A stretch of 64,000 nucleotides of DNA, from contig JAHLKC010000064.1 in assembly GCA_025449115.1 (NCBI GenBank), positions 1-64,000 of the forward strand. Direction: 5' to 3'. The notes beneath the pieces are model-generated. The model was not told where the DNA came from. It ran no database searches and saw only the letters and a list, made by a program, of their open reading frames with translations. This stretch comes from Chytridium lagenaria (Eukaryota; Chytridiomycota; Chytridiomycetes; Chytridiales; Chytridiaceae). Both the position numbers and the translations under genes were made by a program. This document shows positions 33,943-59,700 of this stretch, in pieces (the stretch's first letter is position 1; each line of letters opens with the position of its first letter).

Positions 33943-34150
33943 ACAATTGCCGAGAAACTGTGGGGTGTCGGTCGGACATAAGTGACGAAATGTGGTAATC
34001 TTTTATGGCAAGTCTAAATATAACAACAGTTCAGAGTAATGTCCTTATCAAACCCCACTCCCCACAACAACCCCTTTAAAAGGCTCAGAACGAATCAGAT
34101 AAGTGTGGTGGACTCTAGGAGAAACGTTGAAAGGTCCGTCCTTATCATAC

Positions 34151-34224
34151 AGCGGGAAGCAAAGAAAGGAACGACGTTGGGGGATCCAGCGGGAAGCAAA
34201 GAAAGGAACGACGTTGGGGATCGG
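34151..34224 (+). repeat. Two 37-bp tandem repeats
   Basis: Units start at 34151 and 34188 with AGCGGGAAGCAAAGAAAGG and differ at the last bases only. No coding role is evident. Confidence 0.85.
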
Positions 34225-35833
34225 ATATGGAAACCCCCACATATTTTCTCACTATCAGATTCAACATCCACGTCCCTACCTACCTCTTCAAGTTCATAAA
34301 GCACCATCCAATTCCATAGCATTTTTCGACGGGGCTTGACTTTAAAACCCCCACACTCCCACCACTTCCGTCGCGCATCAGCCTCAAAGCAGGGTCTTGG
34401 CCGATAATTCTCTTAAACTCTCATCCTTATATCATAAACGAAATAAGTCTCGCAACACCCACATCGCCCATATATCGCCGTGATGGCCCCTATCATACCC
34501 TAACCGCACGCCTGTCATCGCGGCTTACCCCAACACCCAATACCCCTTTACATCCCAACCCCACATAAACCCGTAGAATCCATCACAATTCTTGTTATTG
34601 GCCGGACACTCGTACCGCTCCCGGAAACCCCGTAAAACTAAAATCGGCATGCGGCCCCCTTCCCCATTAATTACATACTACCCTTCCTCACATTCCTAAG
34701 AGAAAACACCCTCGAAACAACACCAAAAAAAAAAGCATCACACCGTTCTTTCCACCCTCTGTCTAAGCTACCAAAAAGAACAAATCAAGCACTTATACTT
34801 CCTCAACTCCCTCCCATGCATGAAACGGGTAATGAAAACCAAAAAAAAAAACCAATGCAGCTCATTTTGAGAAAACACCAGCTCTATTCGCTGAACCCAA
34901 GAAACAAAGGCCAGACAATGATAAACTAACAGACTCACAAAAGGTGTCAACCCTCCCTCTAAACCAAGTCATCCACACCCTCCCGCGATCCCACCGAAAA
35001 CCATTATCCCCTCTTTCAAAAACATACAATAATCATATTTTCCTATACTCCTTGAAAAAAAAAAGGCGTTCCTCCTACAAAAACCAAAAAAGAAACGGGG
35101 GAATGGAGTCCATAGAAAAACTCCTCCAAAAAAAAAAGGGTTCTGAAGCGGAGACATAAGAATAAAAAAAAAAGAATCACAACACACCATACCTGGAAAT
35201 CAACAATGAGAGAAAACGATCGTCTTTAATATCAGGGCAAGGCGGGCACGACAGCCACGAAAAAAAACATACAGAAACACTTGAAGATACCGTCGTCAAC
35301 AGAAAAAAAAACCCAGAAACGCGGTGACGCTTTTAAAGGAAAGAAAAGAAGGAAAAGAAAAGAAAAGAAAAGAAAGGCAAGGTCACAAAAAAACATAAAG
35401 TCCGGTATTCCAAAAAAAAAACAACAAAACCAAATCGAAAAAGAAAAAGAAAAAGAAAAAACGAACTTGGTTGAAAACAGAAACCGTCAAAAAAAAGAAA
35501 AAGAAAAAGAAACCAAAAAAACGGAACTCAAACTCAGTTTCATCCATAAAAAAATCAAAAAAATTAAAAAACCCAAAACATCCACAGACCCGCTTAAAAA
35601 AACATCCAAAAAAAAAAAAAAAAGTCCTACATAAGAAAAAAAACCCCCATTCCACATTCTAAAAAAAAAAAAACACCATCACAATCACTCCACCTCCGTC
35701 TCCACATCCATCACCACAACCTCCACACACCCCTCCTCCCACCCCCCCTCTCCAAATCCATTCTCACCACCACCCATCTCAAACCCCCTCTCCTCCCCAA
35801 CCCCTCCCGCAAACACATTCTCAACAACACCCT
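34225..35833. other. Intergenic low-complexity region, A- then C-rich on the + strand
   Basis: No supported gene. 34340-35290 is poor in G. 35290-35680 is dominated by A runs, including AAAAAG repeats near 35437-35462 and A15 near 35608. 35680-35833 is nearly pure pyrimidine. The Lys-rich frame of 117 codons at 35281 is a product of the A runs and not a convincing gene. The minus-strand 3' flank of the SPRY gene is probably here. Confidence 0.5.
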
Positions 35834-37887
35834 TCACAACCCCTCCCCCTCCCCACCCATCCACCTCCACAAAAGCTCTCGATCCTCCAAATCCTCTCCC
35901 CCAAAAAAACTCAACGCCTCCAAAAACTCTACATCCCGCTTCACTCCATCACCCACATTCTCATCGTCACCACAAATCCCTCCTCCCTCATCTCCACCTC
36001 CCCGCAAACCATCCCCTCCCTCCCCAACTTCCTCTCTCTCATCTCCACCTCCCTCCGTAACTTCTCCCCCACCTCCCCTCCGACTCTCAAATCCCTCTCC
36101 CCCAACCTCCCTCCCACTCTCCAAACCCCTCCCCCAACCTCCCTCCGACTCTCAACATCCTCTCCCTCCCATTCTCAAATTCCCCTCTCAACAACCCCCC
36201 ACCACTCCCCCCACGTCTCCTCCTCCCCCCCCGTCCCCCTCCCCAACCCCAACACTCCAACACCGTCCCTCCACAACCTCCCCATAACTAGGTGGCGGCG
36301 CCTCCCCCCCCTCCGACACCGCCCTCCGTCGTCCCCTCAACCCCTCCTCCTCCTCACTCCCCAACTCCCCCCACTCCCACTCGCACTACTCATCCTCTCC
36401 ACCCACACACTCCTCCTCACAGAAAGCACAGGACTCACCACCCTCTCCTCCTGCACCTCCCTCCCACCCTCCTCATCCTCCTCCCACTCCTCCCACTCCT
36501 CCCCACATCGAACACACCCCTCCTCAAAAAATACTTCAACCTCTCCTCCACCTTCAACTCCAACACACGCATACACCTCTCCACCAAGATCAAAAAACGC
36601 TTCCCCCGTATACCGTCCATTCAACGTGAAAAAAACACTCCCAGTCGAAAATTGGAACCCACATCCAATCACATCGTGCACCGTAAAGGGTTGCGCGTAC
36701 GGGAGCGTCGTCGAGTTGGTTCGCTTGGTTCCATCACTCATGTATGCAATGGAATGAGGGGTATGCCCTGGGAGGTGGGTGAACAGGTGTGAGGCTGGCG
36801 CGAGACCAATAGCGATGAGAGTGGATGGGGAGACGTCGGTGACGCGGATTTGGAAAAAGGCGATGGGCGTGGTTGGGTTGGGTGTTAAAGGTGTGGGATT
36901 TGATGGATCTTGAGGGGGGTGAGAAACGGATGAGGGTGTCTGTGACGGTGATGCCAGTTTTCAGGCCGAGCGGGTCGTCTGGGGATGGGGCTGCATGTGG
37001 TTTCGTTTCGGTGGAGGCGGAAGGGGACGTGTTGGAGGTGGGTGGGGAGGGGCGTCATGGGAGGGGTAGCGGTGCATGGAAGTTGATGGACGTTTTCGCA
37101 GGATGCTGGGGATGGAGGTGCGGGTAAGTGAGCGGGAGCGACGGTAGTGATGGTACTGTTGGGGGTGTTGGGAGGGATGAACGTGGAGGTATGGAAGGGT
37201 TGCGTTTGTGATGGAGATGAGGGAAGATGAGGCGGCAGAGATGGGACGGACGGTGGTGGTGTCGGCTTCAATGGATTTTCGCCAGAGGAGAGAGGGGTAG
37301 GAGAAGGTCGAAGAGGAGGCGTCGGGAGATTCCCAGATTTGCGGATTTGGGTATTTTAAGGCGTCGACGCTGGTTTTCAGGTTCGGGGTTCCCCATGAAG
37401 GGTTGCTGCGACGAACGCCACGAGGGAGGGATGTGCCAATGACGTTTGCAATGCCACCGTCATCGTCTTGACCCATGACGCGCATGACGGTGACGGTGGT
37501 TCCATCCTCTTGTTGACCCGTCCAAACTTCTTTTCGAACCCTGCGTTTAGCATTGACGACGCCAGCTTTGAGTTGCAATTTTTCGTCTCTAGATCTATTT
37601 TTTCCGATACTGGCGGCGGGTTCAGGCGGTTTGATGAGTTCCTCCTTTTCAGATTTAGTGGTTGTGTCGGGGGCATCAAACACGTTGTTGGAGGTAAGGG
37701 GTGTGTCACTACTCCAGCCAATGAGCCATTTGAGGGCGTTCCATAGACGGGTCTCGCGTGGGGTGGTGATGGTGGTTGGGGGTGGTGGGGAGGTTAAGAC
37801 ATTGGTGGCAGCCTGGGATCGTGGCAGGAAGGATTCAATCGTGGCTGTCGGCATGCCATTCTCATCCACCAGTCTTTTTCTAGTCAT
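35834..37887 (-). CDS. SPRY-domain protein with PPxY motif
   Basis: ATG at 37887 gives [19 protein letters not shown]. The first 300 residues are Ser/Thr/Pro-rich with basic patches ([13 protein letters not shown]). After a frame change at about 37000-37060 comes a SPRY fold: [95 protein letters not shown] modules bind protein partners. Downstream a PPPSYGEVV element (about 36282-36308) is a possible WW-domain ligand; yeast Ssh4/Ear1 combine SPRY and PPxY to recruit the Rsp5 ubiquitin ligase, but no membrane helix is seen here, so that comparison is tentative. The last 500 bases are Gly/Glu-rich with several possible frames; the end at 35834 is the best guess. Confidence 0.65.
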
Positions 37888-40539: not shown

Positions 40540-43500
40540 ATGCCAGACACCACACCCTCCTACATGTCAACCTCCACAACCTCCACACAATCACCCCACC
40601 CCTTTCCACAACCTCAAGCAACCCCGCATGACAGGCTCATCCAAAACTTTTACTCAAAGACCGCGCAAATCATTGTCCAGGCAAGGTTATCCCCGTCATC
40701 ATTGAAGCAAGGGACGCCGTCACCGTCGGCGCCAATGAGTCCTTTGAAGCAGAACTTTGGGAAACCTGGGATGACTGGGAAACAGGTGGGGGTGATGGAA
40801 GGTCGAGCGAGCCCAGCTCCACTGCCTGCCCGTGCCACCACTGTGGGAGCTGGATCATCAACAACATCAAAGTCCAATAAATGGGTATGCGGTTTTTGCC
40901 CTGGACATGCATCTCTCCTCTCTATTTTTCTCACCTGTTCCATCTCTTCCTTGACACGCATCTCACTCTCTTCTCATCCCTTCCATTTTTTCCCTTACAT
41001 TTAAACCGTATTTCAGCTCGTTCCACATCAACGACAAGTAAACTAACCCTTTCCTCCAACCCCTACCCCGATTCAGTTTAACATTGACCTCCCTGAAATC
41101 GAACCCCTTCGCAGCGAAATGAAACAATGGCGATCCATAGCCCTCCCCACATTCCCTCCCCTCCTCTCATCATCGATATCTTTCTAGACCTCTCCGAAAT
41201 GACGCCAACCCAACACCTCATCCTCAAAGACGAAACAACACTCCGTCGTCATCGCATCCAACACCCCCAAAAACCTCGTATCTTATTAGAAACCTGGCAA
41301 CTGAGTTTATCGTAAGTCCCCGGCCCCCCATTATCATCTTATATTAAGCAATGCAATAGATTCTTCACACCTGGCTTGAATTCACCTGAAGTCGCGGTGA
41401 TTTATAAAAAGGCGGTGGTATTTTTCAGATCTTTGTATAGTTTTGCGAGACTGTTACCTTCGTATCGTTTGTTTAAGAGGGTGAGGAGAGGGCAATGTTG
41501 TCCACTAAAAATCGGGTATCGTCTGTCAACGGCTAGGTTCATGCCGTTAGATGAAGTAGGACTCGGTAAGGCGATCCCCTACCCTTCAACTTTGCTACTG
41601 TATATTCACGTCTTCTTTCAAAAAACCTTTTTAATTTCTTTGGTGCATTAATCAACCTCACCCACACCCTTTTTTTTTTTTGCACTCCCGCATACCTTTC
41701 TGCTATCAAACAGACCAAGTTCATTTAAACGCGGATCCCAGGAAATGGGTCTCTGAATACAACTTTGGGGGATGGAGTTAATAAATGGGTGAGTATATTC
41801 TTGTTCCCCGGGTAAAAATATGTAACAAAGAGTTCCCAGTGCATTCAACCTTCACGTCACCTACCGTCTTGAATGCGAATTCACCATCAACAGTCCCGAA
41901 ACGCTTTTCAGCCCGCGGTTCACCGACATGGACGAGAATTTTTTCTCTGCCAAGCCGCATCGCCGAAAATTGGGGGATGATTGTGATGTTGTGACTTATC
42001 GGATTGGAGGGGATTGGGATGTGTTGAGGTGGTCGTTGGATTCGGTCGGGGAGATGGAGGCGAGGGAGGAGGAGGATGGGGTTGGGGAGGTGCCACCGTT
42101 TTCGATGGAGATGGTGGTGAGAGCGGGGGGTGGGGAGGAGGAGGAGAGGAGGGTGATGGATGGGTCGATGTTGATGCATTATGCGATGGGGGGGTTGAAA
42201 GGGGATGAGATGAAAGGGTTTGAGGTTAGCCCGCCGTTTGACTTTGTGAGTGTTTCTTTTTTTTTTTTTTTGTTTACTGGTTTTACCATTCCTTTTCAAA
42301 TTTCTTTTGTTTTTTTTGCTTTGTGATTGTTAACTTTCTATTGTTTCCTTTTCTGGTTTTGCCTGATCTCATAACCCGTCTTATATTTTGATCACCCATC
42401 ACAGCTCTCCCGAACCGTCGAACCACCCTCCAACCTCTCCCTCCACACCACCCGTTCCTCCCTCTCCTTCCCTCGTCGTCCCTCCCTCACCTTTCCCCAA
42501 TCCCCACTCACCCATTCCACAGGCACCCTCATCCCCACAACCCTTCTCTTTACGCCCACATCCAGCCATCATTCCCGCTTCTAGGGGCGGAACGGATGAG
42601 CCCGCCACCGCTTGTGACGGTGCAGGAGGGGAATGCGGATATGGAGGGGAGGCGGGAGACGGGGAGATGTGGCGGGTGTCTATGACGTTTGGTGTGAAAA
42701 GGGGGACGTCAAAGGTTGGTAATTTCTATCTCTCCATCCTGTTTTTTTCGTTTTCCTTTTTTTTGTTACATCTCATCCCCCTTTCCTTTTTTTCCTTTTT
42801 GTTTTATACCCCTTCTTCCTCTTCCCCATACATCCTTGTCCCATTCTTCCTCTCCCATATTCCCTTTCATCTTCATCCCCATTCTATACCTTTCCAATCT
42901 CCTTACTTGTTTCCCAAACTTTTCAACGCCACCTCGCCCTTTTTCCACTAACCAAACCCTTTCACCTCAGAACGCTTTAGCGCGATACCAACAACTCAAA
43001 GAACTCAACGCCTCGTTCTCCGATTCCCTTAACGCCGTGACCGCAACATCCCCTAAAACCCCGATGGGTAGTCCTTTGACGCGGGTTTCCTACAACGATC
43101 CCCCTTGGAATTCTGACCGCGCCACAAGGTTGTGCGGGCAACGTCATGTTGGTATTGTCAGTGAAAGTGGTGATGAGCGACAAGGTGTTGGTTATGACGA
43201 CAATTCTTTGAGGGCGTGCGCGCAACGTCATGTCGGCATGGTTTCTAGTGAAATTGATGAGCGACCGAAAGGTGTTGTTTATGACGACTCGCCTTCAATA
43301 CCGCGCGCGCAACATCATGTTGGCAATGTTTCTAGTGAAATTGATGATGAGCGACCCAAAGGTATCGTTTACGACGACAACCCTTTAAGAGCGTGCGCCC
43401 AACATCATGTCAGCACCATATCGAGCGAAACTGATGATGATCGACCCAAAGGTATCATTTACGACGATGTAAACGAGACGACTGTGGAGATGGCTGATGT

Positions 43501-45443: not shown

Positions 45444-45504
45444 GCTGATTTGGGAGATGGGAAGCTTTGCTACACAAGATCTTTGAATCCAAAAAAAATC
45501 GGAG

Positions 45505-46782
45505 ATGTCTGTGAACATTGCAGTGATCGGACCTGGTCTAGTCGGATCAGAGTTTATTGCTCAGATTGCCGCTTACCAGGCAAGAGCTACCTCTCAATAC
45601 CGCCTTTCCATCATCGCCATATCAAACTCGAAGCGGTTGCTCGTTCAGCCTTCTGGCATCAACCTCAAGACTTGGTCAAACGATCTTCAAGCCTCACCTC
45701 TTGCAGCGGATCTTCAGAAACTTGCGGATGCTGCGGCTGGGAAAGCTCCTAGCGTTATCGTAGATTGCACATCGAGTGATTCGGTTGCATCCCTTTACCC
45801 GGCATGGTTGAAGAGGGGAATTCACATTGTGACTCCCAACAAGAAGGGGTTTTCAGGACCCATTTCGCTTTTTGATGAGATCAAGGCCCTCACTAAGCCC
45901 AAGCCTGGAGTCCGATACCCTCTTGCATTGCACGAGTCCACTGTTGGGTAATGATTTCATCGATGCTGTTATTGTATCTGATAAAATTATGGTTTTTTTT
46001 TTTATAGAGCCGGTCTTCCCTTGCTCTCAACTTTGAATGATTTGGTTGAGACTGGTGACGAGATTGTGAAAGTTGAGGGTATTTTCTCTGGAACTTTATC
46101 CTTCATTTTCAACAACTTTTCCGTCGCGGGAAGTGGCCCCAAACCCAAGTTTTCAGAAATCGTCAAGGCAGCAAAGGAGAAGGGGTACACTGTGAGTGGA
46201 TTTCTACCTTTTTCTAATTTAACTTGTATAAGTAGTCCTTACTTACTTTTATATTGAAAGGAACCCGACCCACGTGACGACCTTAATGGAATGGACGTGG
46301 CTCGTAAGGTTGTGATTTTAGGGCGTTTATCTGGAGTCCCCTTGACTTTGGAATCGCTTTCCATCGAGAACATTGTCCCTGAAGCTCTTCGCGGTGTTCC
46401 GTCCTCTGACGCGTTCATGGCTCAACTTCCCGATTTCGATGAATACTTTTCCAAGCTCAATGACGAGGCTTTGGCGCGTGGCGAGGTTCTTCGATGTGTG
46501 GGAGTCGTTGACCCCAAGGGCGGCAGTTGCGTGAAACTTCTTGGGTAAGATATTTAAGAACACGAAAGATATTAATTTTGTTTCCTTTTTCGTTTTAGAT
46601 ACCCTCTTTCGCATCCTTTTGCGTCTTTGAAGGGAAGCGACAATATTGTTGCGTTTACAACAAAAAGGTTCCCTAATCCCCTCATTGTTCAAGGTGCAGG
46701 TGCAGGCGCTGCAGTGACTGCGTTTGGGATGTTTTCTGATGTCCTGAAGGTGGCTTCTGCTGTCACATATGGAGCTCAATAG
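45505..46782 (+). CDS. HOM6: Homoserine dehydrogenase
   Basis: NAD(P)H-dependent reduction of aspartate-semialdehyde to homoserine, the branch to threonine and methionine. Four exons separated by introns 45948-46007, 46192-46260 and 46545-46598. The N-terminus MSVNIAVIGPGLVGSEFIAQI is the Rossmann motif. Next are VIVDCTSSDSVASLYPAWLK, HIVTPNKKGFSGPISLFDEI with the catalytic-region Lys, HESTVGAGLPLLSTLNDLVE (NADP/substrate loop) and VKVEGIFSGTLSFIFNNF, then YTEPDPRDDLNGMDVARKVV, which carries the family's Glu-Pro-Asp-Pro-Arg-Asp-Asp-Leu motif with the catalytic Asp/Lys pair. The end is FPNPLIVQGAGAGAAVTAFG. Length about 365 residues as in yeast Hom6; no ACT or kinase domain is fused. Reading frame is intact throughout, unlike many neighbours. 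Cytosolic. Confidence 0.96.
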
Positions 46783-46932
46783 AAAATATAACTTGCATTT
46801 TTAATAATAATGACGCTTGTAAACGTTTTCAGAATTATAAATACTGTCAATCGATTACAAATCGGTGCATGACAATTGCTGTATAAAAGGTCTTCTGACG
46901 AGTCTATCCCCCATCCGCTCTTCACACCCAGA

Positions 46933-47826
46933 ATGTCCTCAGTCACTGCATCCAAAGGCGTTGCCATCATTCTCGGAGTCGGTCCAGGAACGGGGGCAGC
47001 TATATCGCGTGCTTTTGCAAAGAAGGGGTTAGCAGTGGCCATGTTGGCTCGGACACAGTCAAAACTTGATGACATTGCGGCCGACATTATAAAGGAAGGT
47101 GGACAGGTTAGTTTTTGTTAGACAGAGATAATTCAAAGAGAACATATTTAACACTTTGGACGTCAGGCTAAAGGATTTGCATGCGATCTTAGCTCCGAAT
47201 CCAACATTACGTCTGTTATTCAAGACATTAAGAAGACGTACAATTTACCAGTTAGAGTTGGGGTTTACAATGCATCCTCTTTTACGATCAAACCTTTTTT
47301 GAATCAGTCAACCGATGATCTTGCTAATGGAATGGTTTGGTTTTATATAACTGCAAATTGCTTACTGACTGTTCGTACCAGAGCTTTGTAACAGGCGCTT
47401 TTGTGTTTTCTCAACAAGTCCTTAAATTGATGCAAGAGCATGATCAAGGTGGATCGTTATTGTTTACAGGAGCCACAGCAAGCTTGCGTGGAGGCGCAAA
47501 CTTTTCAACATTTGCTGCGCAGAAGGTATATGTTTATAACCATTCGTTTTTTCAACATTAACGTATTTTTTATTTAGTTTGCCATTCGTGGCATGAGCCA
47601 GTCGCTGGCTCGCGAATTCAACCCTAAAGGTATCCACGTGGCTCATGTTATAATTGACGGCCTCATCGACACTGATCGTGTTCGTTCAATGGCTGGAGAC
47701 GTCAAAGCTGCGGATTCACGTTTGAGCCCTGAAGGAATCGCTGATGCGTTTGTTTACCTTCACGAGCAGCCCAAGAGCACATGGACTCTCGAGATGGATT
47801 TACGTCCGTTTGCTGAAAAGTTTTAA
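46933..47826 (+). CDS. Short-chain dehydrogenase/reductase with Phe in place of the catalytic Tyr
   Basis: ATG at 46933 (MSSVTASKGVAIILGVGPGTG) starts a Rossmann fold with the GxxxGxG-like GVGPGTG cofactor loop; an in-frame ATG at 46876 adds 19 residues but lacks the leader context. Later motifs are VAMLARTQSKLDDIA, YNAS at the NAG-like position, SLLFTGATASLRGGANFSTF and AAQKFAIRGMSQSLAREF, then GIHVAHVIIDGLIDTDRV. The classical YxxxK is FxxxK here (F-AAQ-K), and the Ser of the triad is represented by Thr/Ala (TGATAS). This FxxxK type is known in a subgroup of SDR proteins and points to altered or lost catalysis. Introns at about 47107-47166, 47334-47392 and 47527-47578. About 240 residues. 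It follows HOM6 by 150 bases in the same direction and converges with the first polytopic membrane gene; no pathway link is evident. Confidence 0.88.
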
Positions 47827-47958: not shown

Positions 47959-50911
47959 TTAGGACCCTAAAGCCTCTCTTAAAGCGAATAACCTTTGCCT
48001 TCCGAGCTCTCGAAGTCGGTTTAAGGTAATCAATGTAAGAACTGCTGCAAAGTACAACGCAACAATGTTTGATAAGACCGATTTCCCGTACAATAGCATT
48101 CCTAAAACCATTCCAGTAGTGGTGAACGAAATGAGGATGTAAAGCATCCCCATTGTCAGATTAGCATTACCACAAACAATTAGGAACGTGCCGACGATAG
48201 ATCTGTAATTTTGTTTGTTTGTTTGAAAGAGAAAATAACAAGCTTCAGAACTGAATTAGCGTTTGTGAGATACTCACGATATAGATATCATATTGCGCGT
48301 GTCATCTTCTGGGTTTGCTTTGTAAATAATGATTGCGAGCGCTCTAAAGATTAAGAAAGTCAGTAAAAAAAGGGGCTTATAGACTCTTCAATATTGCCTA
48401 CATGTGAAGCTGCGATGACCATAAAAGCAATCAAGGACGTTAAATCAATGAGAACGAGCAAAAGTGATCATCATGTTTCCAACTTACTACAGCTCTAAAG
48501 GTCCCAGCCGTAATAAGAACGACCTGCATGGCAATGTGTCCTTTTATCAGAGATGGAAGCCACGTGATAAAGTAAATTAGGGCGACAAATAATGCACAGC
48601 CAAATCGAATCCACTTGATGGGATCTTGAAGGTGCCCACAAAGAGAAGGTGAGGCAATAATTAAGATTTCGCTTTTTTGGCAATAACTAAAGGAAATGTT
48701 TACTTCAGTCGGTCATAACATGTCCCACCTTACAGGATCTATAAACGCTCCCAGAAGGTCGTTGATTGCCAAAATAAGCAAATTACTCTTTATCGAGTCC
48801 TTCACTTGTTCATGTCTCCAGGCGTAGTAGGTGTGTACGTTGTCGGGATTTGGCCAAGGTACCAACAATGGCTCTCCAATTCTCAACCAGAGCTGATGAC
48901 CCAGTTTTTTAAAAGTTGAAGAAAAATTGTAAACGTCGTCGTCTTTGTCCTGTAATCTTGTTTGCTCTTTTTCGCTGGCAACTTGTTGTGTTTTCTGGAT
49001 TTCATTCCCTTGCTGCATATCTTCAACCTTTTTGGTAACATGCGGAAGAAAGAATCCGGTCAAAATGAGCGTTTGCCGTCGACCTGATATCCTATGTATG
49101 ACTTGTTCATGTGACGTCTTACTCGTTTCATGCCATATTAGCGAGGTGATCGCCTTGGTAGAGAGTGCTTCGATTGCAGATAAATCCTTGTTTGCAACTT
49201 TTGATAGAGCCAGCTCCATCAAAAAGCCAATGCGGTGAGACATCTCACGCTCATGTACGACTAATAGCGCAGATATCCCACTACGTTAAAAATCAGTAGA
49301 GAACGTAAGAGAAGAGAGCATACATCGTGAGATAGTTTATAATAACTGGTGACATCGCGAATGGATTGGCTAGTCTCAATGTAATTGTGACAGTTAACCT
49401 TTAAGTATTGCTTAGCCGTCCTCAAAACGAAAAAAAAACAAATTAAAGTTAAATTTAAGCCTACCATGCCGACATAACCCCAACAAAGACGAGAAAGCAA
49501 GAGCTTGGAAAACTGAATGAAGTAGATAGGTGATTGAAAAGGAAGAAGAAGAAACCGCGAAAATGAGATTTTTGTCCAAGCTTAAATAAGAGAATGAGAT
49601 AAATATAATTACTTGAGATGAGTTACAGCAGTTGTTGCGAACAAAATAAACATATTACCGCCAGAGTGAAAGAAGTTGAACTTTCCGAGTTCCCTCATTT
49701 CCTCTACTTTCTATTCAACCAATCAAAAAATATGCATGATAAAGATAGCCATACCTCAAGCGTATATATGTGATTAAGCCATACAAAAAATGCTGAATAA
49801 GTAAAGAGAATGAGGAAAAACATGATTTTATGATTGAAATGTTCGCAGAATGGCCTAGGTCCAAATTTGAGAACGGAGAAAAATAGGAAAGTAGAAATAG
49901 AGGCCCCCCCTTGAAAGTAGACCTCTTATTTGGGTAAAACGATGTGAGTTATAAAAGAAGAACAAATGACTCTAAAGAAATAATGTAAACCTTGAGCCAT
50001 CCCAAACGCAACTGCTTCGAGAGCCGCCATTAATGAGAACCCGATGCAAGCCACTACCAAGCTAGCTTGGTGTGGTATTAGCGTAAGCCGTCGATAACTT
50101 TCCTACAAAGTTTAAAAGGACGTTTAGAAACTTACACGAAGGATGCCTATCATTGGGTCCAAGAAATGTGAACCCACTTACCAGAAACCTTTGCTCCATG
50201 TCTTTGTCAGACAGGAACGCATAATAGTTATTAAAACCGTATTCTTGAAGCCACTTTCGTTGATCTTCCATTATCAGACTAATTTGATAGTTGCCTGTGC
50301 CAGCCGCGACCAGAAGTTTTTTAACGGTCGTCTGGATAACGCGGGTTCCCCGAAATAAGGCATGGCGAATTACGCTCTAGCAATGATGTAAGAATCGGGT
50401 AAACCGTGATGAGGCAAGAGAAAGAACGCAATTAAATAATTACTTTCTGTTTTGCGGTATTTCCACTTATTACATCCAAATTTTCGGATACTATCGACAT
50501 TCTCTCTACTGTAGAACTTCTAATACTTTTTGACTTAAACTGGCATATGACCTCGCTATTTGATTTCTTAACGTCTGCCGCTACTTCTCGATCACCACTA
50601 TCACACCGCTCGAAGGTTGGTAGTTCGGTTAAAGACCTCGAGCTCCTAATATGTACTTCCTCTCCAGGTTCTGCAAGAGCTTCGTTTGAGCCATTGTTGA
50701 TAAGGTATGGGAGACGCGGAGGATTTCTAGCCCAAGTGGCGGAGCACTTTAAAATAGGTTGAATAGGTAAAGGTTGAGTTTTGGGTGTCGCCTCCAGCGG
50801 ATTAGCGATTTGGCAAGGCGCAGACTGAAGGACCGACTTGTTTTTATCCCCGAAATTCGGATCTCGTGAATTTTCTGGCAATGGTTTTGAGGAGACGAAA
50901 GGTATTGACAT
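47959..50911 (-). CDS. Polytopic membrane protein, tandem family member 1 (function unknown)
   Basis: First of three paralogues in one orientation. ATG at 50911 (MSIPFVSSKPLPENSRD). About 170 residues of disordered Ser/Pro-rich sequence (RSSRSLTELPTFERC) precede a conserved helix (EDQRKWLQEYGFNNYYAFL, DKDMEQRFLVS) and about ten or more membrane helices in small exons, among them VVGYLRYLALLVV-like segments near 49262 and MLYILISFTTTGMVLGMLL near the end. A cytoplasmic loop of about 120 residues (ISGRRQTLILTG..., many Lys/Glu/Gln) leads into the family signature GEPLLVPWP, YYAWRHEQVKDSIKSNLLIL, DLLGAFIDP. The C-terminus is LITLNRLRELGRQRLFALRE followed by ALGS. At least 14 exons. I recognise no known transporter, receptor or enzyme family. 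Membrane location is firm, function unknown. Confidence 0.7.
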
Positions 50912-51387
50912 TTGCGGTCAGTGTCCTGCAGTATAAAAAGGTATGCAACTATTAGAATCTGACCATATACAAGCTATCGCAACAATTGATCTAATACCTG
51001 ACTCCAAAATAGGTTAAGAGTTTTAACAAAACCGTAGCATACCCGTTCACAGATGCCTCTATTGTTGGGACGCCAAGATGGGATTACATTCACCAAGCAC
51101 TTCACAGAAACATCGCTCAGTTAAAGTGGTAAAAGAGGGCATGATGATAACTGAAAATCCCGGTCGTCTTTAGTCTGCGAAGATCACCAGGATTATTTTT
51201 TGTTGTTTTTCTGGACCCGTGCTTGTTTGCGAATTATTAGGATTTCCGTTATAGTACATCGGTAGTTTTGAAAATCGGTGTCTTAAAAAGTTGATTGGAA
51301 ATGACGAAACGTGGAATGCCGCACGATTCTGAAAGTAACTCTTCCGTAGTCAGCATTCTCTATTACAAAATAGAACATGATATATTT
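50912..51387. other. Spacer between family members 1 and 2
   Basis: Promoter region of member 1. It contains TGAAAATCCC followed by CTGCGAAGATCACCAGGATT at about 51149-51196; a related TGAAAATCCC...CTGCAGATCGGGATCATCAGGATT lies upstream of member 2 at 54691-54744, so promoter sequence was duplicated along with the genes. Confidence 0.55.
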
Positions 51388-54300
51388 CTAATACCCTAAC
51401 GCCTTTCTCAACGCAAAAATTCTCTGTCGCCCTAGTTCTCTCTGTCGATTCAATGTAATTAGCGCCAAAACCGAGACGATAAGCATCGAAAGAACTTCGG
51501 ACAAGGAGCCCATTCCAAAAAGTAACATCCCCAAAAGAACGGCAGCAAGGTTAAGGAAGGCGAGAATGTAAACCATCCCCATGGTTAAGTTGGCGTTTCC
51601 GCATACAAGGAGAAACGTACCAATAATAGTTCTGCAATTGAAATGTTAAAAGTTGAAGCACATCTAAAAGGACAAACACATACGAAACTGATAGCATGTT
51701 TCGAGTTTCATCGTCGGGGTGGACTTTGTAGATGACAAGGGCGAGGCTTCTATTGGAGCATACAAAAAGTAAGATAAGGGATTCTCAAGGTGCTGTTATG
51801 AAACACTTACACGTGAAGCTTACATATAAATGAAAAAGCGACAAAAAAAAAGTGAGTAAAAACGCGAGGCAATATTATATCAAAAAATGAAAAATAACTA
51901 CCAAGCCTCTAACGAAGCCTGCCATCACTAAAGCAGTCTGCATTATGAGAGGTCCTTTCGACATGGCTGGAAGCCACGTGAGAATATGCATAATAATAGC
52001 GAATAGTGCACTGCTTAGGCGTAGCGCTCTAATGGTAGGCCCAAGACCTCCGCAAAGAGACGTAGAAGCAACTATCAGTCCTTCACTTAGCCGGCAATAA
52101 CTGGAATTTAAATCATTATTAAAAGCAGAGGAGGAAAATCAATAAACCTGAGGGGATCTAAAAACGTGCCAAGAAAATCGGTGATTCCCAAGATCAATAA
52201 GTTCCCTCGAATAGAGTCTCTCACGTGATCATGCCTCCATGCGAAGTACGCTGGAGCTGTGGCAAGATCAGGCCAAGGTACTAGGAGCGGCTCTCCGACT
52301 TTTTTCCATGCCTTCAACTTTGCTATTTTGAGCATGGAGGGAACCTCGGGTGGCCCCTCATGTGTCCCCTCATGTGTAGGAGGTTGATCCGTGAGCAGAC
52401 TTTTAGATGTCTCAAATCCTTCATCTTCCTTTTCCGTATCCGCTTCCCCGCAAACGTCCCGAACCTTTCGACTGTCGGCGTAAGTAAAATGAAATCCTAT
52501 AGAAAGGAGCGTTTGGCAATAGGGCGGCATTCTTAGAACATCGGCAGATAGATGAATGTTTGCTGTGTGTTTCCATTTAGTTACAATCTCCTGAATCGAA
52601 AGATTCTGAATTGTAGATATATCTTCCTTTGTATTCCTCGATAGAGCTAGTTCCATCAAAAATGCGAGACGGTATGCAAATTCACGCTCACGAATAGTAA
52701 TGATAGCGGAGATACCGCTGCAAGTTAAGCGAGAAGGGATATTAGCACCTGAATATGGTATTAGAAATAAGCTTACACCATTAGGTGGTTCAAAATGATA
52801 GCGGACATAGCAAATGGATTAGACAACCCCAGTGTGCCTGTGACCATTAACCTTGAAATGATTTTAACTTTTAGTCAAATTATTGTAAAAAAGAAGTAGG
52901 AAGAACAAGAAGCCTCACCATGTTGATAAAATTGCGTAAAACATTGAGAAATAATGAACTCGAAAAGCTATTTAAAAAGAGAGAAAAAGAATAAATTTAT
53001 CATTGAGAGTAATTCCTTACTTCATATGTGGAACCACAGTTGAAGCGAATGAAAGGAATACTAGATATTGCGTTAGATTTTGTCAGTAGAATAGATCACT
53101 CACGATTCCCGGCAGAATGGAAATAATTGAATTTTCCCAACTCTTTCATCTCTCGGAGTTTCTGTGCAGAACGTAATGACTATCAATAAAAATAACGAAA
53201 ATGCATTACTCACTATCAAAGTATAAATCTGATGCAGCCACACGAAAAAACCTGTAAATATTATAAAAATAACAAAGAACATCATCTTTTGATGATATCG
53301 CTCTATAGTAAGTTTGGGTCCAAACTTAAAAATAACGTATACAGTCGCTGCGATGGCAGATGATGCTCCTTGAAAAACTACCTCTTGAAAAATTAAGTTA
53401 GCCTGTATTTGAAGGTGTTTCTGTTATAGAGATATACCGTATGCAAGCCCGTACGAGAGAATCTTAAATGAGGCCATAAGAATGAAACCAATGGCGGCGA
53501 TAATCGATATAAGGCGGTTTGCGGGTATCGTGAGTTTCCTGTAGCTTTCCTAAAGGTTTGATCATTAATATTGTTGAAGCAATCGACTAATAAGTCTAGA
53601 TGATACATTGGTCGAAAACTCGTTCGTTGAAGTGATTAAACTCACCAAAAAACTTTTCTCCATTTCTTTATCTTTAAATAAAATCAAAACGGGATTAATT
53701 TCGTATCCTTGCAGCCATAGCCGTTGTTCTTCCATGACTTGGGTAATTTGGGAATTGCCCGTTACAGCAAGAATCTTTTGGACGGTCGTCCCAATAGCTT
53801 GAGTTCCACGACGAACGGCATTCTGAAGTTTGCTTTGCTATCATAGAGAATGGGCAAGTTAGCGAAGAGGCCGACTCCAGAGATGAAACTAAGAACGAGA
53901 TTAAATCCCAAATTACTTTGTAAAGGCTGCCCTCTTTTTCTGCAACATCCTCTAAGACGTCTGATGACATGTTGTTTAAAACACTTCCTCTTGATTTTCT
54001 CCCACGGGTTGTCACTGCCTCCACCGTTTGAAACCTCATCGCGAGCGGCGCGACTAGATCCAAATCCTTTTCGCACTCTTCCACATCGTACGCTTTCATT
54101 GCATCGAAGGTAGATAAATCTGATAAAGATTTGGATGACTTCCGAAAGTCTGCCCTCAATGTTGGTGTCAGCGAAATCTTGCAGTCAATCTTCTCAGAGT
54201 CAATGAAGCTTGCCGAAGATGGCTTCGAACGGTGAGGAATGTCATGCTTTTTGATAGGAGGAAGCCGTGGTGCAGGTCCCGATATTGTATTGGATCGACC

Positions 54301-54528
54301 GAGAATGGGCTTAAATGAACCTGAAAACCTCTTGGGACTTGCTTGTGACGCTACGAGCTCCACGTCATCCGATAGTACACTTTGTCGGGTTGTGAATTCA
54401 AGTGCTGGATGCCTCCGGACGCTAGAGAATTTCACTTCCTCAATTAGACTGTCCCTTGAAGTTTTCGCAGGCAGGTCCGACACGTCTTCAGAGTCGATCT
54501 CAGGGCTGGGCAGTCTTGATGTTGACAT
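51388..54528 (-). CDS. Polytopic membrane protein, tandem family member 2 (function unknown)
   Basis: ATG at 54528 gives MSTSRLPSPEIDSEDVSDL, in line with the short M-S- starts of members 1 and 3; an ATG at 54612 would add 28 residues. The disordered N-terminus (KSSKSLSDLSTFDA) is followed, after an intron near 53835-53912, by QNAVRRGTQAIGTTVQKILAV and MEEQRLWLQGYEINP, DKEMEKSFLV. Membrane helices include ISIIAAIGFILMASFKILSYGL, MFFVIFIIFTGFFVWLHQIY and FAIIMHILTWLPAM. The loop after REREFAYRLAFLMELALSR is acidic with two THEGTHEG-type repeats. The signature is GEPLLVPWPD, APAYFAWRHDHVRDSIRGN, LLILGITDFLGTFLDPLR. The end is LITLNRQRELGRQRIFALRK and ALGY. Exon layout parallels members 1 and 3. 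Best-preserved member and suitable as family reference. Confidence 0.72.
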
Positions 54529-55122
54529 GGCCACTGATAATATCGTATGAATATAATATCTAAACAGTTCTTTACAATAAAAGTATCGGCCCGCTGATGC
54601 GGCCAGCACCAAGTTTCGGAAAAGGCAGATGGAGCCTAGCGATTATTCCGATGCATGGTCTTCTCAAAAAAATAAGGTAGTCGCAGGATATCTGTGAAAA
54701 TCCCTTGGTTTTTCAAGTGCTGCAGATCGGGATCATCAGGATTCTCACATGTCTTTGAGAAGAGCAGCTAAGTTTTGGACAAACCTGCCGTGCGTCGACA
54801 CGTCTCAACTGTGTTCATTTTGTATCATAAAAGCCAAAGGATCGATTATCATGGCCTAATAGTAAATCACAGAACAACAGGAGCGTTGACCTTCTTGCAA
54901 ATTGGGGACTTAATACAAGTATAAAGCGAACTATGTACCGCTCGTCGTAAATTACCACACATAAAATCTAGTGACACGATTTTACGGAGCTTGAATCCCG
55001 TTCTCTATGGTCCACTTCAAAAGCACCGATACATTCTAATCACTGCATGTAGTTTCCATTCACTGCATATGTAACAACTTTATTTACATATTGAATGCAG
55101 AAGAAAGAAAGATCCTACACTT
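54529..55122. other. Spacer between family members 2 and 3
   Basis: No gene. Contains the TGAAAATCCC/ATCAGGATT block shared with the spacer of member 1 (54691-54744). Confidence 0.55.
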
Positions 55123-58100
55123 TCAATACCCCAACGCCTCTCGTAATGCAAAAACTCTCTGCCGCCCCGTCTCCCTCAACCGGTTCAACGTGATCAACAC
55201 CAGTACTGTGGCAAGCAGCATCGACGAGACCTCAGAGAGCGCAGCTTTGCCGTAGAGAATCTGGCCCAGAACCACTCCCCCCACATTAAAAAGGTAAGGA
55301 TGTAGAGCATACCCATAGTAAGGCTGGCATTACTGCAGACCAGCAAAAAGGTCCCTACAACGGATCTATGTAGTGTTAAGGTCTAACGCTTACAGTATGA
55401 CTTACGAAACTGAAAGCATGTCGCGAGTTCTATCTTCAGGGTTGACTCGAAAGACTACAATCGCGAGAGCACTGTAAAAGTGGTAGATTTTAGTTCGAAC
55501 ATATCCACCTTTTTCTGACTAAAGCAACAACAGCAGCATAGGTTACTTACATGTGAATCTGATGATCACGATCACGTTCAGAAAACAAATCAACATTTAG
55601 AGCTATCTAAATAGAAAGGCATCAAAACAAAGGGGCCAAGATGGCCCCGTCTTACCAGGCCTCTAACGGATCCAGCCGCAACAAGCGTAATTTGCATCGC
55701 CAAGCTTCTTCTCGCGATTATCGGCAACCATGTAGAAATATAAAGAAACATGATAAACGAGGCGCTGCCTAATCTAATATTCCTAATCGGACGGCCCAAA
55801 TCCCCACAAAGAGATGGCGAAGAGACAATCAGTGCCTCGCTTATATGACAATAACTAAAGGCCTCTTTAGTGAAGACACAAGAGGTAGACCATACTTCAA
55901 TGGATCTATAAAGGTTCCTAGAATGTCCGTAATGCCTAGAAACAATAGGTTGGCTCTGATGCAATCCCTCACTTGCTCATGCCGCCATGTAAAGTAGGCA
56001 GGTGCGGTAGGTAGATCAGGCCAAGGTGCGAGCAGAATGTCCCATATAATTACTGAAGCGTTGCTCAAGTAATTACAAACGAGAAATCGACAGTCTGAGC
56101 GCTTCGCGCTGGTGGCAGGTATAATCTTTACACTACCATAATTACTCTCAACCCCCTCCTTCTCGACCGACCCACTCGTTAATCCATCATTGATCTTCCG
56201 ACACTCCATATCCATGCAATCACTCGTTTCTTGTCCCTCCCCAACCTCTACTGGTTGAATCTTTCCCGTCTCAACAGCAGAAGCCCCGAAAAATCCTGTT
56301 GCAATCACAACCTTTCCAACAGTCGTCGATTTTCGTATCCATTTTTGGCTTCTTCTATGATTTCGATTCCTCCATTTCGTCGTGATGTCTTTGATCCCAA
56401 GTTTCTGAATTTCACATGTATCTTGACCGGCAGTTTTCGATAGGGCCAGCTCCATCAAAAAGGATAGACGACAAGCTACTTCTCGATCATGAACAATCAT
56501 CAGTGCAGAGGCGCCGCTGGACAATACATAAGAGAGCGAAATGACATTGGACTTACATCATAAAATAATTCATGAGAGTAGCGGAGAGAGCAAAAGGGTC
56601 AGAGAGTCCCAATGTATACGTGGGAGTTAACCTGTAAAGAAAAAGTAATACATTCCGTTAACAGAAAATTGGGCAGAAAAGTCATTTTCAAGTGAAAAGA
56701 AGGGGTTTGAATTTACCAAATTGATAAAACCGCAAAGACTGCTAGCAAAACCGAACTCAAAAAACTAGTCGCATGAACATACATTTCATTAGTTATTCTC
56801 AAAAAAAAAAAAAAAAAAAAGGAGGAAGAAAGGAAAAAGGAACGAAGAAAAGAGGCGGTGGCGATATTAAAATGAAAAAAAGAAGGTAGCGATACCGACG
56901 TTGTGTGTGGTACTGCTAGTGCACCGTACATTAGGAACATAAATCCACTTGCATGGAAGAAATTAAATTTCTTCATCTCTGTCATCTCCTTTAATTTCTG
57001 CAACCTTTTACCAAACAGTCGAATCGAATAATCTTACCACCAGCGTGAAAAGTCGATTCAACCAGACGAAAAATACGCCAAACACGACAAGTATAATGAA
57101 AAACAATATCTTTTGATGAATGCTTTCCATAAGAGATCGAGGACCGAATTTGAGAAGGCAGCACATGCAGATGCCCATAACAGACGATATACCTTCGGCA
57201 TAAACCTCTTTCACGATGTTAGAAACAAAGGCATAGATAAGAGGTAAAGGAGTGTACCTTCCCAAAGACTGAGATCTAACCAGTCTAAAATCGCCAAGAT
57301 TGCTAACCCAGCACTGGCGACGACGAGACTAATACAATTTGCGGATAAAGTGTTTCTTCTGTAACTTTCCTGACATAATGATCAAAACGATAATGCCCGC
57401 ACCAACTTACCAAAAAAGTCTTTTCCATATCCTTATCCTTGATACAAGCAAAAAAGGGGTTGATATCGTATCCTTTCAACCATAATCGCTGTTCCTCCAT
57501 GATTTGGGTATTCTGCGTATTTGCCGACAGAATCTTTTGAACGGTCGTTCCGATAGCTTGGGTACCCTTTAGCATAGCATTTTGAAAATTGGATTGCTGT
57601 CCGTAAAAAACCGTAAGAGAAACACTGCTTGTAGACAGTAAAATAAAATACCTTTGACATTATACTCGCTTTATCTCCAAAATCTTCGCGCAGATTATCT
57701 GAAGATGCAAGCTTAGCCATAGAGCTGCTCGAACTGTTTTTCCAGATAAATGAACCTGTTTTTGGAGACGTCAACGATAGCGGTGAGATCTGTTCATTCT
57801 CCGATTCATTTCTCATTTTCCTGGATTCAGATAAGTCGGTCAAAGATTTCGTTGTTCTTCTCACGCCCGTCTTTAATGTCACGAAGGCGACCTCAATAGA
57901 AGGTGTGACAATAAGAGGCGGCAGGCGCGGTGATGTCTCTGGAAATATTGAACAGCCCAAGCTTGGTACGGACTGTGACGAGTGGGTAGAATCGCATTGC
58001 ACGGTGGGTGTGGTAACGTCGGGCGAGTCGTGATCAGAAGAGGATAAAGTTGTATCGATTCGAATAATAGTGGCACCTTGCGACGCTTTCTTTTCAAGCG

Positions 58101-58149
58101 CGGTCTCGTATGTGTCTGCAGGGCCGCCGAGGGGCTTCAACGCCGACAT
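55123..58149 (-). CDS. Polytopic membrane protein, tandem family member 3 (function unknown)
   Basis: ATG at 58149 (MSALKPLGGPADTYETALEK). The N-terminal disordered part contains RRTTKSLTDLSESRK, the same K/R-S-L-(T/S)-(D/E)-L element as in members 1 and 2, which may be a shared phosphorylation or docking site. Then NAMLKGTQAIGTTVQKIL, MEEQRLWLKGYDINP and DKDMEKTFLV match member 2. Signature part: LLAPWPDLPTAPAYFTWRH, EQVRDCIRANLLFLGITD, ILGTFIDPLK. C-terminus: LITLNRLRETGRQRVFALRE and ALGY, with the stop at 55123. One frame shift at the A run 55288-55292; one more base restores FFNVGGVVLGQ. The G of the GEPLL motif is lost (WDILLAPWP). Exon-intron layout is shared with the other members, so these are duplicates of one intron-rich gene. 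Confidence 0.72.
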
Positions 58150-58865
58150 TAGTGATAATCTGCTGTAAGAGAAAAAAAATGGCCGCAATCTTAAAGCGTG
58201 TGTGAAGGGCACTCCTCTAATGTGCACCGATCAACGTGCTTAAAAGCCCTTGCGAAGGTTATCATTGAAAATCAGATACCACATGAGGAATCTGAGGAGA
58301 AGGCTTGAAATTTTCCAGCGAGTTGGTGATCTGTGACGAAGGGAAGCCAATTATTTAGTAGAAGTTCATGGTTTATTGGGTATTGGAGGTACATTGGGCT
58401 CCTTGAGAAAATCGGATCACTTAATATTCTTACATCGCAGAGATGTCGATGGTAACAGCCTTAGTACTCATAACTGCATTTCACCGGTTTGAGAATCAAT
58501 TCTAGACTACGCATCATTTTATAGTACTGCATCGCGGTATATTTGAGTCGACATCATCGATGCCTCTTCTTCTCTACATGCATACCTATATAGGCACCTA
58601 CCATGTTACCTCATTCCAACTTGTCAGTTTCCAACCATCAACAAGTTTACAAGTACATATCTAGTTATCTACGTATACGTTGATTTCTTACATTATTTTA
58701 TCTCGTCGCGTGCAGATCTTATAGCACTCTAGTTTATCCTATTAAGCTCCGTCGTCTGAACATAGCACTACTCACACAGAAACTGGCAGTCGCAAGTACA
58801 CCCTTTCCTTCTTTACTTTTTTAAAACGCCTAAACCAGAATACAATGTGACTAATGCATTATAAA
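58150..58865. other. Upstream region of family member 3, no gene
   Basis: AT-rich, no coding support. No clear counterpart of the TGAAAATCCC/ATCAGGATT block of the other spacers was found. Confidence 0.4.
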
Positions 58866-58950
58866 TTCTTCGAGGCCTTTTCAAACACAAAAACCGTCTG
58901 CCTCCCTGTCCTTTCCACCAATTCTCTCATTCTCATCGCCATCCACATTA
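58866..58950 (-). pseudogene. Decayed 3'-end fragment of the polytopic family
   Basis: On the plus strand GAGGCCTTTTCAAACACAAA, then CCGTCTGCCTCCC, mirrors the end of member 3 (CGCCTCTCGTAATGCAAAAA, CTCTGCCGCCCC), i.e. the region encoding the Arg-rich C-terminal tail. Only about 85 bases are recognisable and no frame is kept. Confidence 0.5.
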
Positions 58951-59105
58951 CCTTTTACCCCTGACATACTTAAAGCAGTCGAGCCATCAAATCCTACGAA
59001 TTCCATATTTCATCTCATGCCATCCTTATAGCAACCCGTCTCCAAGGCTACAACTTTTACGAGTTCTTAATTTAAACCAAACTCCAATGTGACTAACGCT
59101 CTCCA

Positions 59106-59700
59106 TCAAAGCCCCATCGCTTCTCTCAACACAGCCACCGTCTGCCTCCCCAACTCCCTCAGCCGACTCAACAGAGAAACCGTCGCAAGCAGCAACATGG
59201 AAAGTTCAGAAGCACAGCTCTCCCAAACAGATTTTCTCCCATCGCCAATGCCCCTACATTGAAAAACGTAAGGAGTAGAGCATCCCCATTTCAAGGCTGG
59301 CGTTTTTACAGACAAGTATAAAAAGTCTTAACCATGGATCTGTCATAGTTAGGGGGCAAAAGTGTGGGAGAGGAGCGGGCTTACGAGACTGATATCATGT
59401 CGCGGTTTTGTGATTAGGGTTGACGCGGAACAGAGTGAGTGCGGGGGCTGTAGAGAGTTGGGGTAAGGGGGGAAAGGGGAAAAGAACTCACATATAAAGC
59501 TATTGATAAGTAAAAAGTCATAGCCCCGAAATAGGTTTTGATTGAGTTTAAGAAGGGACTAGCGGGAAATGCCCCTCGTACGAAGGGCTCGAATGGAACT
59601 AGCCGCCTTGCATAGCAATACTCGATCTCGCCACCCCAGACATCCACGTCACCCCATAAGAAACACAGCAAACACCGTCTCAGATGAGACATCATAATCT
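59106..59700 (-). pseudogene. Truncated relic of a fourth member of the polytopic family
   Basis: The end SRLRELGRQTVAVLREAMGL with a stop at 59106 matches the family C-terminus, and the preceding exon reads in shifting frames as ASLEMGMLYSLRF, FNVGALAMG and SLSMLLLATVSLL, like the last membrane helix of members 1-3. Further upstream (59400-59700) remains of the exon before (FVRG, compare GFVRGLV) can be traced with stops. Everything 5' of this, about three quarters of the gene, is missing and unrelated sequence follows. Confidence 0.75.

Follow-up and report, generated by a model that had tools for sequence, protein, structure and literature searches.

A lineage-expanded membrane protein family of Chytridium lagenaria, tentatively likened to the membrane part of twelve-helix class III cyclases

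What kind of protein is encoded by a row of neighbouring, intron-rich membrane protein genes in the chytrid Chytridium lagenaria? The genes lie on contig JAHLKC010000064.1 (here C64, other contigs being named in the same way) of a 41.9 Mb assembly comprising 356 contigs, within the stretch of 64,000 nucleotides that is called the window below. An earlier annotation made from the letters of the window (the sequence-only reading) had described a tandem array of an unrecognised polytopic family, possibly a new class of receptor, channel or transporter. The array is real and comprises three minus-strand genes, A, B and C. It is proposed here, tentatively, that they belong to a lineage-expanded chytrid family resembling the membrane part of a twelve-helix class III cyclase from which the catalytic domains are absent, and that its members may be sensors, perhaps pairing with true cyclases.

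Exons were joined at GT-AG junctions common to the copies, the minus strand being read in three frames, and the models of A, B and C were built using one another as a guide. The sequence-only reading had announced three genes of about 3 kb with many introns, and this is what the models give (2.95-3.14 kb, 12-13 exons). The array it described is only part of a larger genome-wide family, and a fourth copy, D, is a remnant that looks plainly decayed (tblastn against C, E 1.3e-11).

47959-50911, minus strand: gene A, 12 exons, intact, 744-residue product, GT-AG junctions shared with B and C
51388-54528, minus strand: gene B, 13 exons; the frame shifts once, by +1, in exon 7 (52919-52967)
55123-58149, minus strand: gene C, 12 exons; in the last of them the frame is shifted once, at a G6 run (55272-55286)
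about 59109-59457, minus strand: remnant D, corresponding to the last two coding exons, decayed and interrupted by stop codons

All 11 introns of A are found in B and C at the identical place and in the identical phase, with one extra intron in B. Identity to A in the conserved part amounts to 48% for B and 47% for C. An exon of 8 nucleotides, flanked by GT and AG, is present in all three genes.

48402-48409, minus strand: microexon of A, GT-AG flanked
51811-51818, minus strand: microexon of B, GT-AG flanked
55551-55558, minus strand: microexon of C, GT-AG flanked; the database model P0001 uses a longer exon there

In a paralog on another contig (C37b) the bases homologous to this exon run on continuously from the upstream exon, which supports the microexon being coding. 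Four database models of the family were met, all annotated as hypothetical proteins of Chytridium lagenaria and all partial or mis-spliced. P0003 matches gene A up to and including exon 5, P0002 spans B from the end of exon 7 to exon 10 before running into the intron, and P0001 (BC829DRAFT_444757) is gene C minus exons 3-6, with the 8-nucleotide exon not used as such.

The proteins share one order of parts: a K/R-rich N-tail, membrane segments, a charged loop, a second membrane group and a short tail (17-42 residues). A, B and C end about 20 residues past the last helix. Most of the motifs listed in the sequence-only reading recur in all three, namely (K/R)SL(T/S)(D/E)L, QR.WL.(G/E)Y, DK(D/E)ME..FL and an Arg-rich C-terminus. 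The V of its 'FLV' segment is a splice donor read through and not coding, and its PWPD..YxxWRH signature holds in the wider form PWP(D/N)...Y..WRH, since A has PWPN. The elements that open and close the two membrane groups, here called halves, are placed as follows (TM6 and TM12 are transmembrane helices 6 and 12).

50182-50217, minus strand: A, motif before helix 1, FLSDKDMEQRFL, start of membrane half 1
53646-53681, minus strand: B, motif before helix 1
57411-57446, minus strand: C, motif before helix 1
49199-49255, minus strand: A, helix following TM6 (ERE...R..FLMELALSK)
52636-52692, minus strand: B, helix following TM6
56435-56491, minus strand: C, helix following TM6
48875-49198, minus strand: A, variable charged middle loop, 108 residues (114 in B, 131 in C)
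48812-48859, minus strand: A, PWPN...YYAWRH, start of membrane half 2
52231-52278, minus strand: B, PWPD...YFAWRH
55979-56026, minus strand: C, PWPD...YFTWRH
48635-48652, minus strand: A, SPSLCG in half 2
52049-52066, minus strand: B, STSLCG in half 2
55803-55820, minus strand: C, SPSLCG in half 2
47962-48018, minus strand: A, Arg-rich C-terminus after the last helix, with no further domain

A crude hydropathy scan gave 10, 12 and 15 segments in A, B and C, in line with the ten or more helices expected, and 10, 9 and 10 in three further members. Three of the 15 segments of C lie in its N-tail or loop, and the remaining 12 fall into six and six. A build of two halves of about six helices each is supported, not proven. 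The sequence-only reading mentioned neither this layout nor a likeness to cyclase membrane domains. An opening of the F.D..LE..F type is clear in half 1 of all six aligned members and in half 2 of those on C33 and C96; the half-2 opening of the array genes is a degenerate form, PWPD...Y..WRH. Both halves close with a helix, E...R..FL after TM6 and R..FALR.AL at the end in A, B and C. Invariant in 6/6 aligned members are an E and an F before helix 1, E...R after TM6, W-R-H, S.SLCG, and E, F and L near the C-terminus. Compared as profiles, the two halves match at E 0.012 over 102 columns, against 0.28 for the reversed control, which is suggestive, though weakly, of an internal duplication.

That the family is unrecognised was borne out by the searches. 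At E<=10 no Pfam family was found for A, the alignment of six members gave single chance-level matches (best E 0.039), and P0001 had no useful match in Pfam or the PDB. Sequence relatives in the PDB were lacking for A, and the six-member alignment reached only E 1.9. The PF00211 cyclase catalytic domain was not found in A, P0001 or the six aligned members. For A and the six members there was likewise no match to the Pfam-A profiles MFS_1, Ion_trans or 7tm, the last in keeping with 9-15 segments compared with the seven of G protein-coupled receptors (GPCRs). MFS_1 itself was found at at least nine places elsewhere in the genome (the best nine of 89 candidates scored), which serves as a positive control and not as a census. 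Protein searches for relatives outside Chytridium lagenaria returned only the four hypothetical models; the method relied on shared exact 5-residue words, scored about 8000 candidates and sees fairly close relatives only, and with six sequences it missed even P0001, so that absence elsewhere is weak evidence. Neither a transporter or GPCR match nor single-copy genes of known function across fungi were seen, the two outcomes named beforehand as speaking against a new class. Among the matches listed, a description of the family was not found in the freely readable literature on the Chytridium lagenaria genome, chytrid cyclases, cyclase membrane domains or pseudocyclases, nor did the locus-tag prefix have a literature match.

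Queries of the genome's contigs with the proteins of A, C33, C37b and C96 located, in addition to the array and D, further genes elsewhere: C80 has three, C37 has two, and C33, C98 and C96 have a single one apiece. The C235 match is a duplicate of C37a. Three more places on C190 probably duplicate those on C80, because their spacing is nearly equal (offset about 65.7 kb) and one pair has equal scores. The family therefore has at least 11 genes, or 14 if C190 is distinct from C80, plus one remnant, and this is a lower bound; a weak match on C125 (E 0.08) stands outside the count. Clusters are found on C64, C37 and C80.

At least one frameshift is present in each of B, C, C37b and C33 as read, and in C98 too. 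The C37a locus, assembled twice, is informative here. Its copies on C37 and C235 differ by no substitution and by 17 single-base gap columns in 5798 aligned columns (by blastn over 8.7 kb, 99.70% identity, five mismatches and 21 gap positions), and the reading frame that is interrupted on C37 stays open on C235. Because the difference consists mostly of single-base indels, it points to indel errors of the assembly, and the shifts need not be biological. For the frameshifts of B and C, errors of assembly are a likelier cause than decay, and with duplicated contigs differing mainly in this way, frameshifts in this genome are no proof of pseudogenes without reads.

The family is under purifying selection, with dN/dS (the ratio of nonsynonymous to synonymous divergence) 0.13 for one pair, C33 and C98 (dN 0.18, dS 1.4), as estimated over 12 hand-picked segments of 358 codons in all, with synonymous sites saturated in three of the 12. 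Comparisons among A, B and C are at or near saturation at synonymous sites, with dN 0.26-0.40 in the membrane halves. Together, the low ratio of C33/C98 and the low dN of the array genes' membrane halves make the genes look functional. The variable loop noted by the sequence-only reading is indeed less conserved, with 20-24% identity among A, B and C compared with 48-64% in the membrane halves. The diversifying specificity read into it did not find support: in C33/C98, dN/dS is 0.36 in the loop and 0.51 in the stretch just before half 2, compared with 0.11 outside loop and N-tail, and in B/C the loop value is about 0.6 (0.92 over 1.54), obtained from poorly alignable, near-saturated sequence. 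No sign of positive selection on the loop or other variable parts was seen in these comparisons, and the loop is under relaxed constraint.

Membrane domains of cyclases offer the closest parallel to this layout that was considered. In published accounts they diverge beyond recognition (PMC9552081; PMC9433096), a short invariant stretch precedes the first helix, TM6 and TM12 extend as coiled-coil helices (PMC9552081; PMC9433096), the centre of the cyclase-transducing element in animals is SxL/MP or NxLP (PMC9552081), and the membrane domains are presented as lipid receptors (PMC11606603). The animal cyclases AC1-9 and the six-helix mycobacterial Cya (Rv1625c) are like the chytrid family in their division into helix halves, two in number, in a cytosolic N-tail, in a conserved stretch ahead of helix 1, and in helices extending beyond TM6 and TM12. 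Unlike them, the family is without a C1 or C2 domain and without a transducing element, has an extra SPSLCG in half 2, and shows no significant profile match to them. The transmembrane cyclases of Trichomonas (PMC2914791) are likewise a large expanded membrane gene family with pseudogenes; they are described as adenylyl cyclases, whereas the chytrid family has no catalytic domain.

The genome's own cyclases allow a nearer comparison. It carries 46 stretches matching PF00211, which are pieces of genes. From the open reading frames (ORFs) listed at 15 cyclase loci, four with a membrane part of like kind (C8, C9, C39 and C59) were chosen afterwards; C81 and another C8 gene, also candidates, are not in this set. 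In C9 (26200-29800) a cyclase domain (E 4.9e-4 and 7.9e-12) is followed by a six-helix-like part and another cyclase domain (5.1e-9), and in C39 (216800-220700) a weak cyclase domain (0.0098), a six-helix-like part and a clear cyclase domain (3.8e-14) succeed one another; such an order would fit either a chytrid twelve-helix cyclase like those of animals or two cyclase genes side by side. The membrane parts of these bona fide cyclases are near-silent in Pfam, with no match in three of the four and a chance-level one (0.024) in the fourth. Their halves barely find one another: in the genome search the C59 half reaches C8 at 6e-4 and C39 at no better than 5.7, and the search with the C39 half recovers nothing but itself. 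Such poor mutual detection agrees with the divergence beyond recognition reported in PMC9552081.

A matrix was built from 13 family half-starts, six of half 1 and seven of half 2, the half-2 register being set by eye. Its best window fell just before helix 1 (22-35 residues ahead) in 4/4 cyclase ORFs, and 6 of 5000 column-permuted matrices placed all four in the same zone, which was defined after the positions were known. Half-1 starts alone did the same in 4/4 cyclases (permuted control 5/3000). The helix motif after TM6, E...R..[FY]L, had its best match at the right place in two of the four cyclases (shuffle P 0.022 and 0.027). Half lengths are near one another, 217-224 residues in the family and 227-252 in the cyclases, with ends cut by hand at like motifs. 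The likeness to the genome's own cyclases comprises half size, the position of the pre-helix-1 motif and, in two of four, the post-TM6 helix. The differences are that these cyclases carry PF00211 domains and that three of the four ORFs show, past the membrane part, an ILP element resembling the published transducing element. The [LIM][LM]P form seen in these ORFs is present in 0/6 family members. The animal-type element is absent in five of the six, and in B it occurs only at N-tail residues 4 and 17.

Several results weigh against this kinship. Half-2 starts alone hit the position in only 1/4 cyclases, and the post-TM6 end motif fails in two of the four. The top score of the matrix against shuffled ORFs is clear only for C8 (P 0.005; the others 0.09, 0.19 and 0.47), and genome-wide the matrix is unspecific, since in the first 47.5 kb of the window 73 matches scored at least 4, one of them followed by a hydrophobic segment, compared with 118 and 11 over 73 kb of cyclase loci. 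Comparison of the family halves with the four cyclase halves by hhalign was not significant, with E 0.2 for both halves (over 21 and 14 columns) and 0.83-0.89 for reversed controls; of the two matches, that of half 1 alone lay at a like place. None of the family queries (A, C33, C37b, C96) matched a contig carrying a PF00211 cyclase. The hydropathy count of 9-15 segments, compatible with 12, yields no clean 12 in each member, and the AlphaFold model of P0001, made from a 7-row alignment for a protein without exons 3-6, is unusable (mean pLDDT, the predicted local distance difference test, 43). Taken together, motif positions and layout are suggestive of kinship with cyclase membrane domains, which is supported, not proven.

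Other explanations have to be weighed against this one. Members of the major facilitator superfamily have 12 helices in two halves. The chytrid proteins could be lineage-specific transporters or channels with 12 helices built as two six-helix halves, as in that superfamily or in two-pore channels; the gross layout of two helix halves around a charged middle loop is the same, and invariant D, R and C residues lie in or near helices. This nevertheless appears unlikely, as A had no Pfam match and the six members only chance-level ones, none of them to MFS_1, in a genome where MFS_1 is detectable elsewhere. Conserved helices after TM6 and TM12 are, moreover, not known as a transporter feature. It is similarly doubtful, though conceivable, that the family represents orphan receptors of chytrid zoospores that are unrelated to cyclases and expanded like insect or nematode chemoreceptors. 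Gene clusters, strong divergence and the failure to find a relative beyond Chytridium lagenaria fit such receptors, but the strong purifying selection, the lack of visible positive selection on variable parts and the preference of half-1 starts for the pre-helix-1 position in 4/4 cyclases do not.

That the genes are non-functional relics whose frameshifts record decay is very improbable. The shifts in five members and the decay of D would fit it. Gene A, though, is intact, and a pseudogene reading of A was rejected for that reason; for B and C such a reading was judged unlikely in view of the C37/C235 indel pattern and the constraint. C33 and C98, both shifted, are themselves the pair with the low dN/dS.

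Some further observations were made at cyclase loci and around the array. At C20:322103-325282 a rhodopsin-like membrane segment (PF01036, E 7.8e-5, just under the cut-off) shares its locus with a cyclase match and is perhaps part of a rhodopsin guanylyl cyclase; both strands of C20 carry cyclase matches, with about 3 kb between them. Cyclase-domain matches also form two tandem clusters, at C19:6766-14100 and C19:104257-112079, and the pieces read from them look coiled-coil-like, not membrane-spanning. In the window, beyond the 3' end of A, homoserine dehydrogenase (PF03447, E 5.3e-19) and short-chain dehydrogenase genes lie on the plus strand at 45487-47826. A 90 bp tandem repeat of 3.8 copies is located at 43132-43467, and strand asymmetry is strong at 34001-36000 (GC skew -0.43, AT skew +0.37).

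If the array genes do derive their form from cyclase membrane domains, the helix bundle might bind a membrane-borne or extracellular ligand, and the ligand-induced change would travel through the helices leaving TM6 and TM12. Since the proteins have no catalytic domain of their own, their effect would depend on a partner, either a true membrane cyclase of the genome with which they pair or another, cytosolic one held on the loop and N-tail. More specifically, and with less confidence than the resemblance as a whole, the family might consist of stand-alone twelve-helix sensors that regulate separate cyclases by membrane pairing, the receptor role having been split off into a fungal gene family of its own.

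What the twelve-helix membrane part of adenylyl cyclases does is still termed a blind spot (PMC12414865). Should the link to cyclases prove wrong, an expanded and constrained membrane family unknown to Pfam would still have been found. If it is true, a membrane part kept under selection without its enzyme would indicate that this part has a function of its own. The chytrid proteins would then be suited to testing ligand binding without catalysis, and would be a natural case for testing if a cyclase's membrane half is in itself a sensor.

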